A DNA stretch of 29,919 nt from a virus, in IMG/VR virus record IMGVR_UViG_3300012919_000025, positions 1 through 29,919 of that record; one strand, 5' to 3'. The notes beneath the pieces are model-generated. The model searched no databases. It was not told the DNA's origin and was given only the letters and a program-made list of their open reading frames with translations. The translations under genes and the position numbers were made by a program. Of this stretch, positions 4,047-9,448 are shown piece after piece. Position 1 is the first letter of the stretch, and every line of letters starts with the position of its first letter.

Positions 4047-4382
4047 ATGGAACAATGGACTAACATAATCGTAAAAATACAAAAGGAAGGTATTCATTAC
4101 TGGAAAGATTGTGACTTAGAAGAAGTTGATTATCTTCAATATGCTCATAGACATATTTTTCATATCGTGTGTAAGAAAGAAGTAAACCACGATGATAGAG
4201 ATATTGAAATAATTATGTTCAAACACAAAATAGAAGATTATCTAACTGAAAAATATGGTGTAGTAGCAGAATTTGGTGGTATGAGTTGTGAAATGATAGC
4301 AAAAGAATTATTAAATAAATTTGAATTAAGCTATTGTAGTGTGTTAGAAGATAACGAAAATGGTGCAGAGGTATGGAAATGA
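4047..4382 (+). CDS. T-fold (QueD/PTPS-like) protein, divergent
   Basis: This 111-aa protein belongs to a family widespread in phages, usually unnamed. I see a layout that parallels the QueD encoded at 4972: an N-terminal strand with His17, then AHRHIFHI (His34, His36) in place of QueD's LHGHTY, then DRDIEIIMFKHKIEDYL, then MSCEMIAKELLNKF aligning with QueD's TSAENMAIWLFNQI, and a final strand with LEDNENGAEVW corresponding to QueD's AETKSSKVIY. It lacks the catalytic Cys and Asp-His pair of QueD. I infer a T-fold that may bind a pterin or purine. A closing 4-nt ATGA overlap leads to the small membrane gene. Confidence 0.5.
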   Translation: MEQWTNIIVKIQKEGIHYWKDCDLEEVDYLQYAHRHIFHIVCKKEVNHDDRDIEIIMFKHKIEDYLTEKYGVVAEFGGMSCEMIAKELLNKFELSYCSVLEDNENGAEVWK

Positions 4383-4971: not shown

Positions 4972-5376
4972 ATGCTGAAAATAGTAAAAACTTATCATTT
5001 TTATTCAGGTCATAGAAATAAAGAAGCTGGTGAAAAGTGTGGTAGGCTTCATGGCCATACATATGATGTTGAATGTACCTTTAAGTTTACAAACTTAGAC
5101 AATGGTATAACAATGTTGTTTAGTGATATTGATAAAATTACTGAACCAATTGTAAAACAATATGACCATTATTTTATTCTATTTGACCAAGACCCAATTT
5201 GTGAAATGTTAGATTTAGCAAATGAACCATATAAGAAAGTTCCATTTGAAACATCAGCAGAAAATATGGCAATATGGTTGTTTAATCAAATCAGAAAAGA
5301 GTTACCTATTATCAAAATAAGTTTAGCAGAAACAAAATCTAGCAAAGTTATATATGAGCAAGGGCTTGAGGATTAG
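4972..5376 (+). CDS. queD: 6-carboxytetrahydropterin synthase QueD
   Basis: QueD converts 7,8-dihydroneopterin triphosphate to 6-carboxy-5,6,7,8-tetrahydropterin, the second step of 7-deazaguanine synthesis. The 134-aa length fits the family. Zinc ligands are His14 (YSGHRN) and His27 and His29 (RLHGHTY); catalytic residues are Cys23, Asp65 and His66 (YDHYF); Glu120 in LAET is the pterin-anchoring Glu. The segment TSAENMAIWLF is also typical. The gene starts a compact cluster and overlaps queE by 23 nt. All key residues are present, so I expect an active enzyme. A 6-pyruvoyltetrahydropterin synthase role is less likely because of the queE and dpdA neighbours. Confidence 0.9.
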   Translation: MLKIVKTYHFYSGHRNKEAGEKCGRLHGHTYDVECTFKFTNLDNGITMLFSDIDKITEPIVKQYDHYFILFDQDPICEMLDLANEPYKKVPFETSAENMAIWLFNQIRKELPIIKISLAETKSSKVIYEQGLED

Positions 5377-6067
5377 TGAACACTTTTATTCCTTACAAGG
5401 TGAGGGTAAAACAATGGGAATACCTAGTGTGTTCCTAAGACTTCAAGCGTGTAATCTAATGTGTGATGCCAAATGGGTGTGTGATACAATAGATGTTTGG
5501 ATAACTGGCGACCAATATTCAATAGAAGATACATTAGATTTATTTGAAAAACAAGGATATACAGATGTTCTATTCAAAGGTGCACACTTAGTATTAACTG
5601 GTGGTGAACCATTATTACAACAAAAAGCATTAGTAGAATTTTTAGAGGCTTACTATGAAAGGTTTTTTTATTTACCATATGTTGAAGTAGAAACTAATGG
5701 TACAAAAACACCAATACCAGAATTAATCAAATATGTTAATCTATTCAATGTTAGTCCTAAACTATCTAATGCAGGTATGAATGAAAAAAGAAGAGTAAAA
5801 CCTGACACTATAAAAGTATTCAATGAAATAGAAAATAGTATATTCAAATTTGTTATAGCAGACAAAGATGATTACAAAGAATTGTGTGAAACATATATTG
5901 AACCTTTAGATATTAGAAAAGAAAAAATATACCTGATGCCAGCAGCAGATGACCAAGATATGTTAGATGCTAATGCTCAATATGTAGCAAGTGTTTGTAT
6001 AAAGAAATGTTATAACTATTCATCTAGGTTACAAATAGAATTATGGAATAAAACAACTGGTGTATGA
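5354..6067 (+). CDS. queE: 7-carboxy-7-deazaguanine synthase QueE
   Basis: QueE is a radical SAM enzyme that contracts 6-carboxytetrahydropterin to 7-carboxy-7-deazaguanine (CDG). The 237-aa protein has the QueE opening SEHFYSLQGEGKTMG (residues 8-22), the SAM-binding L-T-G-G-E-P motif near residue 82, VEVETNGT near 114 and a N-V-S-P-K-L segment. The cluster cysteines are Cys33, Cys37 and Cys43, giving C-x3-C-x5-C rather than the canonical C-x3-C-x2-C. QueE proteins are known to vary at the third Cys, so activity is still plausible. It overlaps queD and, through ATGA, the small gene that follows. Confidence 0.85.
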   Translation: MSKGLRISEHFYSLQGEGKTMGIPSVFLRLQACNLMCDAKWVCDTIDVWITGDQYSIEDTLDLFEKQGYTDVLFKGAHLVLTGGEPLLQQKALVEFLEAYYERFFYLPYVEVETNGTKTPIPELIKYVNLFNVSPKLSNAGMNEKRRVKPDTIKVFNEIENSIFKFVIADKDDYKELCETYIEPLDIRKEKIYLMPAADDQDMLDANAQYVASVCIKKCYNYSSRLQIELWNKTTGV

Positions 6068-6198
6068 TAGATTTTTTTAGACACTTTTTTGGTTTTTGTG
6101 GTGAACCTCATTTGAACTTCTGGCATATACTTGCAACACCTTTTGGTGGTTATATAATTTATAAATTAAAACAAATAAACAATGACAAAAAAAATTAA
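6064..6198 (+). CDS. Small hydrophobic protein, 44 aa
   Basis: This reading frame fills the gap between queE and the folE fusion. It starts in an ATGA overlap with the queE stop and ends 17 nt inside the next gene. The product begins with Phe-rich residues (MIDFFRHFFGFCGEPHLNFW) and continues with a hydrophobic stretch HILATPFGGYIIYKL, consistent with a short membrane-associated peptide. I have seen no named family. Its placement inside the base-modification operon is notable, but it may simply be a membrane peptide unrelated to the pathway. Confidence 0.45.
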   Translation: MIDFFRHFFGFCGEPHLNFWHILATPFGGYIIYKLKQINNDKKN

Positions 6199-7021
6199 AC
6201 TAGTATGGGAGGATATCTTTGCTAGAGTGCATGATTTACCTAATGGAAAATACTATGGAGTTCCAAGAGGTGGAACAATAGTTGCAGGTTTAACTGGTCA
6301 GGCAGTTGATACTCCTGAAGAGGCTGACTACATAATAGATGACCTAATAGATAGTGGTAGAACAAGAGATAAGTGGAAAGAAAAATATCCTGATAAACCA
6401 TTTGTGGCTTTATATAATAAACAAAATGGTGATAAGTATTTAGGTTGGATTGAGTTTCCTTGGGAAGAAAAAGGTGAAAGAGATGCAGAAGATAGTGTAG
6501 CTAGATTATTACAAGCATTTGGTGAAGACACAAATAGAGAGGGTCTAAGGGAAACACCTAAAAGGTATGTTAAGTTTTTTAAGGAATTTCTAAACCCACC
6601 AGATTGGAAGTGTACGACATTTGATAGTGAGGGATATGATGAAATGATAGTACAAACTAATATACCTTATCATTCTTTATGTGAACATCATATAGCACCA
6701 TTCTTTGGTGTAGGTCATATAGCTTACATACCTGACAAAAGAATAGTTGGTTTAAGTAAATTAGCAAGAACCTTAGAAACATTTTCCAGAAGATTACAAA
6801 ATCAAGAAAGAATAACAAATCAGGTAGCTGAATTTTTACAAAACCAATTGAACCCTAAAGGTGTGGCAGTAGTACTAACTGCAAAACATATGTGTATGGA
6901 AATGAGAGGTGTAAAGAAACACGATACATATACAACCACTTCTAAATTAATTGGCTCATTCAAAGAAGACCACAAGTGCAAAGCAGAGTTCTTACAATAC
7001 ATATCTAATGCAACAAAATAA
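6182..7021 (+). CDS. folE: Phosphoribosyltransferase-like / GTP cyclohydrolase I fusion
   Basis: This 279-aa protein has two parts. Residues about 1-95 form a short type-I phosphoribosyltransferase-like domain: YYGVPRGG (24-31) and the PRPP loop IIDDLIDSGRT (51-61). Residues about 98-279 are GTP cyclohydrolase I: RETPKRYVKFF (123-133), SLCEHHIAPFFGVGHIAYIP, GLSKLARTLETFSRRLQNQE, and AKHMCMEMRG. Zinc ligands Cys167, His170 and Cys238 are all present. FolE turns GTP into dihydroneopterin triphosphate, the QueD substrate. The PRTase part might salvage guanine or a 7-deazaguanine base to a nucleotide, but that is inference. Its stop overlaps the next ATG by 1 nt (TAATG). Confidence 0.85.
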   Translation: MTKKIKLVWEDIFARVHDLPNGKYYGVPRGGTIVAGLTGQAVDTPEEADYIIDDLIDSGRTRDKWKEKYPDKPFVALYNKQNGDKYLGWIEFPWEEKGERDAEDSVARLLQAFGEDTNREGLRETPKRYVKFFKEFLNPPDWKCTTFDSEGYDEMIVQTNIPYHSLCEHHIAPFFGVGHIAYIPDKRIVGLSKLARTLETFSRRLQNQERITNQVAEFLQNQLNPKGVAVVLTAKHMCMEMRGVKKHDTYTTTSKLIGSFKEDHKCKAEFLQYISNATK

Positions 7022-7959
7022 TGGCAATAATTCTAGTACATATTGAACCCTTAGAAGAACGCTATTCAAAGCAATGGTTAGATGACCTAAAGGATAAGGT
7101 TGATGTTATATTAGGTAGTACTGAAGAACAAGTAATAAAAGATGGTGAATTTCTAGATGTTTACGATACTAACTTATTCAAACTTAATCAAGGTATTGAT
7201 ATAATAAATTATGTTAGAACTCATAAACTTACTAAAGATGATACTATATTTTTTCTTGATTTATGGAATCCAGTAGTAACAATGTTAGGTTATGTTAGAG
7301 ATTGTATGAATTTAGATTTCAAAATTGCAGGTATGTTACACGCAGGTACTTGGGATGAATGGGACTTTCTATCAAGAAGTGGTATGGGCAGATGGGCAAA
7401 AGGATTAGAGTACTCAATGATACAAGTGGCTGATAAAGTTATAGTGGCTACTGAATTTCATAAAGAATTAATCAGAAAAGATATAATGGAATTTACTAAT
7501 ATTATTGTAGAAGATTTTCCTATTTTTACAGATGATATAGTTCTTGACAAAAAAAATATAGTTGTATTTCCACACAGACTAGCACCTGAAAAGGATGTAG
7601 ATTATTTTTGGAATGTAGCAAAAGAGTATAAGAAAAAATACAATGATGATACTGTATTTATAGAATCAGTAGGTAATTGTAACAGTAAACAAGACTACTA
7701 TAATTTATTAGCAGAAAGTAAGGTTAGTTTTAGTAGTGCTAAACAAGAAACATTTGGTATTGCAATGTTAGAAAGTTTGAATTTAGGTTGTATTCCAGTA
7801 GTTCCAAATAGATTAAGTTATAGAGAAACTTTACCAGGTTATACTTATAATAATATTGAAGAGGCTATTGAAATGGTTAGAGATGGTATTATGAATTGGA
7901 AAAGGCCTAAAAAATATACTGTAAATAACTTTGACAATATATTGAAAAGATTAAAATGA
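7021..7959 (+). CDS. GT-B glycosyltransferase (GT4-like)
   Basis: This 312-aa protein has a GT-B pattern. The C-terminal half has FPHRLAPEKDVDYFW (183-197), corresponding to the sugar-donor R-x-x-x-x-K region, and ETFGIAMLE (243-251), an intact E-x7-E motif of GT4-type retaining enzymes, followed by SLNLGCIPVVPN. The N-terminal half opens with IILVHIEPL and contains GMLHAGTWDEW and ADKVIVATEFHKE, the acceptor domain. The H-R-x-x-x-E-K-x-x-x-x-F segment and the opening I-E-P recall tRNA-queuosine mannosyltransferase (QTMAN/GTDC1), which glycosylates a 7-deazaguanine. It lies between folE and dpdA with TAATG and ATGA junctions. I infer that it acts on the modified base; another acceptor is possible. 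Confidence 0.7.
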   Translation: MAIILVHIEPLEERYSKQWLDDLKDKVDVILGSTEEQVIKDGEFLDVYDTNLFKLNQGIDIINYVRTHKLTKDDTIFFLDLWNPVVTMLGYVRDCMNLDFKIAGMLHAGTWDEWDFLSRSGMGRWAKGLEYSMIQVADKVIVATEFHKELIRKDIMEFTNIIVEDFPIFTDDIVLDKKNIVVFPHRLAPEKDVDYFWNVAKEYKKKYNDDTVFIESVGNCNSKQDYYNLLAESKVSFSSAKQETFGIAMLESLNLGCIPVVPNRLSYRETLPGYTYNNIEEAIEMVRDGIMNWKRPKKYTVNNFDNILKRLK

Positions 7960-8828
7960 AAATATTTCTAGCTGGTGTTGAGGGCGGTGACCCACAAAAG
8001 ATTAGAGAGTATATAGAATATGCTTTCTATTCATATTATTACCTTAGAAATGGTGATAAGCAGTTAGAGGGTGCTATTGACGCTCACAAAATACTATTCA
8101 TTGATAGTGGTGCACACTCATTCTTCAATGAAAAAAGTGATGAGGGAGTAATGAGTGCTTCATATCACACAAAGAAAACTAAAACAAAAGAAACACCAGA
8201 AGAATATTTTGAAAAATATTTACACTGGATAGTAAAAAATTATAGAAAAATAGATTATTATGCTGAATTAGATATAGGTGAATTAGTAGGACAAGATGTA
8301 GTTTTAGAATGGAGAGAAAGATTAAAAGAAAAAAATGTATATGATAAGTGTGTACCAGTATATCACCCTACTTGTATGACTTGGGACGATTATATTGATA
8401 TGTTAGATGACTGCACTAGTGGTTACATTGCATTAGAGGGAGATAGAGGTAATAGAAAAAGACTTAACTATAATAAACTAATAAAACCTGCATATGAAAG
8501 AGGTATTAAGGTTCACGGTTTTGCTATGACTAAAACAGAAGTACTTAAAAATTATCCTTTCTATTCAGTAGATAGTACAAGTTGGATGCAAAGTGAGATG
8601 TATGGAACAATACCTTTTCACAAAAATGGTAGTATTAAAGCATTAAGATATAGTGATAAAGAAAAATTAATAGAAAAATTAGGTGACCTTGATGTGAATA
8701 TACTATTTGGTGAGGATAAGGCAGTTAGAAGATTATATACAATGAAATTTGGAATAAGAGCTTACAAAGAATACGAACATTTTTATACAAAACTATGGCA
8801 AAAAAGAAACATAAACTGGGATATCTAG
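7956..8828 (+). CDS. dpdA: DpdA-like DNA guanine transglycosylase
   Basis: DpdA proteins are TGT-fold enzymes that swap guanine in DNA for a 7-deazaguanine base. This 290-aa protein shows the motifs: FIDSGAHSFF (48-57, Asp50 corresponds to the TGT general-base Asp in DSGG), YAELDIGELVG (102-112), VPVYHP (133-138), HGFAMT (187-192) and YSVDSTSWMQ (203-212), where Asp206 is a good candidate nucleophile. It lacks the long tRNA-binding C-terminal domain of archaeal TGT. It is joined by ATGA to the glycosyltransferase and overlaps the ParB-like gene by 34 nt. With folE, queD and queE it makes a phage DNA-modification operon. Substrate base is probably CDG. Confidence 0.8.
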   Translation: MKIFLAGVEGGDPQKIREYIEYAFYSYYYLRNGDKQLEGAIDAHKILFIDSGAHSFFNEKSDEGVMSASYHTKKTKTKETPEEYFEKYLHWIVKNYRKIDYYAELDIGELVGQDVVLEWRERLKEKNVYDKCVPVYHPTCMTWDDYIDMLDDCTSGYIALEGDRGNRKRLNYNKLIKPAYERGIKVHGFAMTKTEVLKNYPFYSVDSTSWMQSEMYGTIPFHKNGSIKALRYSDKEKLIEKLGDLDVNILFGEDKAVRRLYTMKFGIRAYKEYEHFYTKLWQKRNINWDI

Positions 8829-9448
8829 ATATAGATGTCAACCAATTAGTAAAAGCTGATTGGAACTATAAAGAAGATGACAAAGAGTTATCTAAAAAAC
8901 TAAAAAAGAATATTGAAGAAGAGGGTATAATTCAAAATCTAATAGTAAGGGAGTTAGGAGATAAGTATGAAGTAGTCAATGGCAACCATAGATTAGATGT
9001 AATGAACGATTTAGGTATCACTAAGGTACATGTATATAACTATGGTAAAATATCTAAGAATAAAGCTATGGAGGTAGCTATTAAGACTAATGAAACTGCT
9101 TTCAAAACTAATGCTCTTAAATTAGGAGAAACCTTTTCTGAATTAACAAAAGAATATGATATAGATTATTTAGCAGATAGTTTACCATTCAAGAAACAAG
9201 AAATAACTAATATGATTGAATTGTTAGAATTTGATTGGACTAAATTTGATGATGATGATGAATTAGATTTAGAAGAACCAGACCCATTCAATCACACAAT
9301 TAAACTAAAAGTAACAAAAGAGGTATATGAAAATTGGATTAACCTTAAAAAAAGGATGTTTGAAATAAATGGATATGACAATGATAGTAAGGTTATAGAG
9401 TTTGCTATTATAGAGGCATTAAATATACCCTTAGAAAGCCTTAAATAA
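8795..9448 (+). CDS. ParB/Srx-like nuclease-domain protein
   Basis: This 217-aa protein has the ParB N-terminal fold: IDVNQLVKADWNYK, then LSKKLKKNIEEEGIIQNLIVRE, then KYEVVNGNHRLDVMNDLGITKVHVYNY, where G-N-H-R corresponds to the ParB box II (G-x-R-R/H-R). An acidic stretch (DDDDELDLEEPDP, about 150-165) separates it from a C-terminal domain that looks like a helical DNA-binding or ribbon module (TIKLKVTKEVYENW...). ParB-like proteins are often found directly before phage terminase genes, as here, where they may help mark or process DNA for packaging. Enzymatic activity cannot be judged. The ATG lies 34 nt inside dpdA. Confidence 0.75.
   Translation: MAKKKHKLGYLDIDVNQLVKADWNYKEDDKELSKKLKKNIEEEGIIQNLIVRELGDKYEVVNGNHRLDVMNDLGITKVHVYNYGKISKNKAMEVAIKTNETAFKTNALKLGETFSELTKEYDIDYLADSLPFKKQEITNMIELLEFDWTKFDDDDELDLEEPDPFNHTIKLKVTKEVYENWINLKKRMFEINGYDNDSKVIEFAIIEALNIPLESLK

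Follow-up and report, generated by a model that had tools for sequence, protein, structure and literature searches.

The locus described here raises the question of what a glycosyltransferase (GT) does inside a viral operon for the synthesis of 7-deazaguanines and their exchange into DNA. The window, i.e. the whole stretch of DNA analysed, is a complete IMG/VR virus record of 29,919 bp, classed as linear; such records are often fragments. It has a GC content of 31% and contains no tRNA. The operon has the order queD-queE-folE-GT-dpdA, all on the plus strand, and the following features are relevant:

4047-4382, plus strand: F1, a second QueD-fold protein (phrog_17812, function unknown), assigned by profile comparison, AlphaFold, Foldseek and alignment
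4972-5376, plus strand: QueD, 6-carboxytetrahydropterin synthase (PTPS, E 5e-23; C-x3-HGH and D65-H66)
5354-6067, plus strand: QueE, 7-carboxy-7-deazaguanine synthase (phrog_2076, E 3e-55)
6182-7021, plus strand: FolE, GTP cyclohydrolase I (PF01227, 7e-65), with a phosphoribosyltransferase-like (PRT) N-terminal domain
7021-7959, plus strand: GT4-like retaining GT-B glycosyltransferase, 312 aa (motifs IEPLEERYSKQW, HAGTWDEWDF, FPHRLAPEK and QETFGIAMLE; Pfam, alignment, AlphaFold2 and Foldseek)
7956-8828, plus strand: DpdA-like DNA-guanine transglycosylase, 290 aa (phrog_887, E 5e-32; alignment; weak alignment to 7ui4)
8795-9448, plus strand: ParB-like protein (PF02195, E 6e-8)

A first-pass annotation of this DNA had placed an intact GT gene between folE and dpdA with overlapping start and stop codons, and both overlaps can be read directly: the folE stop codon TAA (7019-7021) shares one nucleotide with the GT start codon ATG at 7021 (TAATG), and the end of the GT gene (TGA, 7957-7959) shares four nucleotides with the dpdA start, ATG at 7956 (ATGA). 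The QueD-fold gene at 4047-4382 and the PRT-like N-terminus of folE had gone unnoticed there. The ParB-like gene, which overlaps dpdA, probably marks the end of the operon and may itself belong to the system. Another viral locus (L014) also has a ParB-like gene adjoining dpdA.

Sequence, fold and family of the glycosyltransferase

The GT reading frame starts with ATG and is uninterrupted. Its product matches the Pfam family Glycos_transf_1 (E 8.6e-9; 35.6 bits against a curated cut-off of 26.4), which is matched at E 0.01 by 27 of the 42 GT family members. The AlphaFold2 model, built from 37 family members (pLDDT 93.8, pTM 0.90), is a two-domain GT-B protein, so that the earlier description as an intact GT-B enzyme holds. 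In an alignment of 42 homologues (15-60% identity), the two motifs singled out in that description, E243-x7-E251 and F183-PHRLAPEK-191 with R186 and K191, are nearly invariant. The same is true of the N-terminal residues E9, R14, Y15, W19, HAG107-109, D112 and D115, which are specific for this family. Model and alignment together contain the double Rossmann fold, the EX7E motif and the R/K donor-phosphate residues of a GT4-like GT-B enzyme.

The nearest solved folds found with Foldseek are GT4/GT5 enzymes, among them glycogen synthase, TarM, MshA, BshA and SenB; for MshA, BshA and TarM the E-values are 1e-7 to 1e-9 and the TM-scores 0.5-0.68. The closest viral model is that of the orthologue in phage ACP17 (TM 0.90). 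With the GT4 enzymes MshA, BshA and TarM the window GT has the EX7E donor motif in common, whereas the motifs of the N-terminal acceptor domain are different. No member of the Pfam families of the T4 alpha- and beta-DNA glucosyltransferases was matched when the window GT and the 42 GTs were compared to all Pfam models with hmmscan.

Structure prediction and comparison, proposed in the first-pass annotation, thus bore out the GT-B fold and gave no support to the kinship to the tRNA-queuosine mannosyltransferase QTMAN (GTDC1) that had been suggested there, the structural neighbours being TarM, MshA, BshA and glycogen synthase. The domain PF12038 (QTMAN_N) had no match at E<=1 in the 11 GT-bearing records and none among the 42 GT family members. 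Kinship to QTMAN is therefore unsupported and was rejected. We take the H-R-x3-E-K stretch to be a common donor-site motif of GT4 enzymes. What the window enzyme would still share with QTMAN is a GT-B fold and, as a proposal, a deazaguanine nucleoside as acceptor. Mannosyl- and galactosyl-queuosine are glycosylated deazaguanine nucleosides in tRNA (PMC12518689, PMC8654956), and transglycosylase and GT might form a viral parallel acting on tRNA. This is very unlikely given the missing QTMAN_N match and the type of transglycosylase, which is DpdA-like at the GT loci (phrog_887 and phrog_10773 types) with no Pfam model matching at E 0.1. QueF, QueA and QueG were not noticed in the operons, as an incidental observation outside any targeted search.

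Linkage to deazaguanine genes in viruses

IMG/VR was scanned with the GT alone. At least 597 stretches encode it, the best 80 of which were kept, and partner genes were scored with independent HMMs at a set of 85 viral and 23 bacterial or MAG loci. In 38 of the 85 viral loci the GT is well flanked (at least 5 kb on both sides). Every one of these 38 carries F1, biosynthesis genes (FolE/QueD/QueE) and a DpdA-like transglycosylase, all on the GT strand, and at least one deazaguanine partner gene is present at 85 of 85, counts that come from related loci and hence are non-independent trials. Since the association recurs in all well-flanked viral loci, it is not due to chance, and the earlier placement of the GT in a deazaguanine operon is confirmed. 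Occurrence of homologues without any deazaguanine gene, which would have spoken against this placement, was seen at only one locus with long flanks, a bacterial one described below (L120), in a check that comprised the 108 viral and bacterial or MAG loci and the named phages.

The tree of the GT family has long branches, with deazaguanine linkage on all sides. The linkage is kept down to 24-36% GT identity, across shuffled gene orders and three DpdA subtypes, and is seen in phages of Pseudomonas, Acidovorax, Sinorhizobium, Synechococcus and Xanthomonas. Among named phages, the GT is encoded by the PA5oct/PAC2/Paride jumbo group (Pseudomonas), ACP17, Phosso, X1, BUCT-ZZ01 and the PhiXhv group with Ep032. 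QueE is encoded by all six named lineages (PA5oct/PAC2, ACP17, Phosso, X1, BUCT-ZZ01 and PhiXhv-12), and in all but the last it lies within 6 kb of the GT. Among 50,697 phage records, QueE is matched in 369 and FolE in 392; these frequencies were taken as background because scanning with an unrelated phage GT as a control (Arthrobacter DanielleIgnace gp91) yielded one relative only.

PhiXhv-12, the most distant named lineage, had been considered as a deazaguanine-free exception and was dropped as such. The gene directly upstream of its GT (L012:5606-7129), annotated as L-glutamine-D-fructose-6-phosphate aminotransferase, is a GATase-QueC fusion (PF06508, E 2e-49), and QueE and a FolE-like match are found elsewhere in the genome.

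Many phage GT4 enzymes function in seroconversion or act on capsules. A GT that modifies host surface glycans, virion proteins or lipids and lies in this operon by chance is nevertheless highly improbable, as the linkage to deazaguanine genes is absolute in deeply diverged viruses and extends to bacterial islands, and the GT overlaps translationally with its neighbours in the window. With the GT linked to deazaguanine genes, a sugar on the deazaguanine is therefore the best-supported reading.

Transglycosylase, FolE fusion and absence of QueC

In the window DpdA, D50 (DSGA) and D206 (VDSTSW) are invariant in 16 homologues and fit the catalytic aspartate pair of TGT and DpdA; H187 is found in the motif VHGFA. 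The alignment to the solved DNA-guanine transglycosylase 7ui4 is weak (E 0.9) and covers the same region, this short DpdA being tied to known TGTs by PHROG profile and motif only. PDB profile searches with the DpdA sets gave weak matches, mostly to the right enzymes. Because profile comparison gave no convincing link between the window-type and the PA5oct-type DpdA, both are treated as separate subtypes with shared motifs.

The N-terminal domain of FolE comprises about 95 aa and contains the motif IIDDLIDSG. The same PRT-FolE fusion is present in four further loci (L007, L014, L017 and L021), and a PRT match was obtained at 54 of the 85 viral GT loci. The domain may salvage the guanine that DpdA sets free, or the deazaguanine may be its substrate.

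QueC (PF06508) was not found above the cut-off in any of 23 IMG/VR records, in PAC2, ACP17, Phosso, BUCT-ZZ01 and X1 (the latter with one sub-threshold match) or in the window, the record of which is a fragment. With QueC missing from the GT records of the main clade, the pathway is expected to halt at 7-carboxy-7-deazaguanine (CDG) and then to run through the QueD-fold protein F1. The DpdA systems described in phages insert dPreQ0, dPreQ1, dG+ or dADG (PMC6884629), and the window has FolE, QueD, QueE and DpdA in common with them, by which a deazaguanine is exchanged into DNA. In contrast to these systems, F1 and a dedicated GT take the place of QueC or Gat-QueC (the preQ0/G+ branch). The 2019 paper that describes them (Hutinet 2019) contains no word starting with "glycosyl". 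A survey of jumbo phages assigns a deazaguanine system to PA5oct, and the part of it consulted ties no GT to this system (PMC7824862).

F1, a QueD-fold partner of the glycosyltransferase

At the 38 well-flanked viral loci the GT is linked to F1 as tightly as to the biosynthesis genes. Comparison with QueD by hhalign gave 95.6%, and the AlphaFold model of F1 (pLDDT 96.3) matches E. coli QueD with a TM-score of 0.77-0.79 (Foldseek, E 4e-6). F1 has the T-fold and the three-histidine metal site of the QueD/PTPS family: the zinc-type triad H17/H34/H36 is invariant in the alignment, as are R51, E54, S80-C81-E82 and E101-D102. The C-x3-HGH cysteine and the D-H dyad of QueD are absent from the F1 alignment and present in that of true QueD proteins. 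F1 is probably a zinc-dependent enzyme and a candidate for the step after CDG; in the simplest reading, CDG, the product of QueE, would be its substrate. A 2023 NAR paper by Cui reportedly introduced DpdL as an enzyme that decarboxylates CDG and detected 7-deazaguanine in the DNA of phages; F1 may be this DpdL.

F1 is also encoded without the GT, in the phages Cellulophaga phiST, Chryseobacterium MA9V-3, Rhizobium I1_18, Vibrio Bakedbeans and D479 and Faecalibacterium Roos, most of which have FolE and QueE. Because such loci exist and every well-flanked viral locus with the GT has F1, the distribution of the GT is nested within that of F1. In phage Roos the order is ParB-F1-DpdA-Vut_1 (L095:8291-10887), with a strong Vut_1 match; FolE and QueE were not detected in this phage, and the arrangement is a salvage version of the pathway.

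Bacterial loci

The scan of GTDB genomes yielded 23 GT loci, several of which look viral or are found in MAGs; a plasmid search for the bacterial GT found none. In the alphaproteobacteria Shimia, Devosia, Sulfitobacter, Thalassobius and Azospirillum the GT adjoins a DpdA-like gene, and within 8 kb of the GT neither F1 nor biosynthesis genes were detected. A short membrane protein (Vut_1, PF02592) is encoded immediately upstream in all four genera tested (Shimia, Devosia, Azospirillum and Sulfitobacter; E 2e-7 to 3e-5, one of the four matches being over the cut-off). We take Vut_1 to be the COG1738/YhhQ family. YhhQ is described as a preQ0 transporter in the part of the source consulted (PMC5372724). 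With Vut_1 adjoining GT and DpdA, these loci thus combine salvage, GT and base exchange in a reduced module (L109:7483-10548 and L104:6081-9044), possibly a bacterial DNA-modification island. These modules lacking F1 show that an imported base, of unspecified kind, can suffice for the GT, which counts against the explanation preferred here. The Magnetospirillum loci have GT, F1, DpdA and QueD.

The GT of Paenibacillus polymyxa (L120:8001-9023) has no partner gene within 8 kb. Inspection by eye revealed neighbouring genes resembling those of a nucleotidyltransferase, a PLP decarboxylase, an acyl-CoA dehydrogenase and an ATP-grasp enzyme, possibly a natural-product biosynthetic cluster. This homologue looks like a derived escape because it is nested within the GT tree.

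Closest in chemistry is the antibiotic huimycin, in which GlcNAc is attached to the 2-amino group of a 7-deazaguanine, a step assigned to the GT HuiG of a folE/queD/queE/queC cluster (PMC7439116). In contrast to the proposed viral product, huimycin is free, and its cluster has QueC and no DpdA. A free, huimycin-like metabolite instead of a DNA base would agree with the identical biosynthetic front end (PMC7439116) and with the secondary-metabolite-like genes around the Paenibacillus homologue. We give little credence to such a product, since a DpdA-like transglycosylase, which huimycin-type clusters do not need, accompanies the GT in all 38 well-flanked viral and 21 of the 23 bacterial loci. 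These figures also answer the co-occurrence survey of GT and dpdA suggested in the first-pass annotation, in favour of the pairing.

A proposed route to a glycosylated DNA base

We consider it likely that the operon encodes a sugar-adding branch of viral 7-deazaguanine DNA modification. FolE, QueD and QueE would convert GTP to CDG, which, with QueC missing, would be passed to F1 rather than used for preQ0 synthesis. F1 would alter C7 of CDG, the product perhaps being 7-deazaguanine itself, and DpdA would exchange guanines in the viral DNA for this product. The GT4-like enzyme would then use a nucleotide-sugar to glycosylate the inserted deazaguanine, and the bulky base so formed would shield the genome from nucleases, following the logic of T-even glucosylation. 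In the best reading the GT thus acts on a deazaguanine already inserted by DpdA. The sugar is possibly joined through N2, for which huimycin is a precedent, or forms a C7-glycoside. Should F1 do no more than decarboxylate CDG, no ring-pendant hydroxyl group is available and N2, O6 and the C7 carbon are left as nucleophiles; the sugar would then need to be placed on N2 or C7, which also counts against this explanation.

It is unlikely that the GT works ahead of DpdA, on the free deazaguanine base or on a nucleotide product of the PRT, with the sugar entering DNA or serving as a transient protecting or channelling group, because the pockets of DpdA and TGT are known for small C7 substituents. 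Glycosylation of T-even and RB69 DNA, moreover, takes place after polymerisation according to the sections consulted (PMC6024577). Such an early transfer would be in line with the recurrence of the PRT in the operons and with the proposal that the huimycin GT modifies a free 7-deazaguanine derivative, adding GlcNAc at its 2-amino group (PMC7439116).

Glycosylation after insertion would make the system work like DpdA modification combined with T-even-style glycosylation. As in T-even glucosylation (T4 alpha-GT and beta-GT) and RB69 arabinosylation, a GT-B enzyme is proposed to add sugar to a non-canonical phage DNA base. The bases are 5-hydroxymethyl- and 5-hydroxycytosine there and a deazaguanine here, and the window enzyme is GT4-like and matches no Pfam family of the T4 glucosyltransferases.

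Several genes near the GT at other loci are candidates for sugar tailoring, namely a PIG-L deacetylase (L039, L012), a second GT (L011/BUCT-ZZ01 and L029), an epimerase (L030), a class III aminotransferase (L034 group) and Gfo/Idh/MocA and alcohol-dehydrogenase-like genes (L029). In the BshA and MshA pathways, a GT is paired with a PIG-L deacetylase. As none of these genes is among the operon genes of the window, host UDP- or GDP-sugars would serve there. In one subclade a radical SAM protein (12 loci) is encoded directly upstream of the GT and overlaps it (L005:6649-7992, L007:6610-7986, L019:6622-8004); it possibly adds further base or sugar chemistry. A protein of about 173 aa lacking any family match (F4; L074:6736-7257) is present at about 62 loci, mostly in a marine GT group in which QueD is mostly undetected.

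Implications

The open literature, to which the search was confined, yielded no paper reporting glycosylated deazaguanine in DNA, and the glycosylated DNA bases in the papers found are pyrimidines. We know of no other kind of glycosylated DNA base, and a glycosylated 7-deazaguanine would be, to our knowledge, the first sugar-decorated purine base in DNA. Because the pairing of GT and deazaguanine genes recurs in hundreds of unrelated viruses and in some bacteria, a sugar-coated substitute for guanine is probably present in the DNA of many viruses. It is, with somewhat less confidence than for the branch itself, probable that in hundreds of viruses, and in some bacteria with the transporter-GT-DpdA island, DNA guanine is replaced by a glycosylated 7-deazaguanine through a QueC-independent route from CDG via F1 and DpdA to the GT. 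If so, phages would have merged two great strategies of base camouflage. This would explain why GT and phrog_17812, an unannotated pair, occur together at about 600 or more IMG/VR loci and in phages that can be cultured, the PA5oct/Paride group among them, and would provide new enzymes for setting sugars at guanine sites in DNA.
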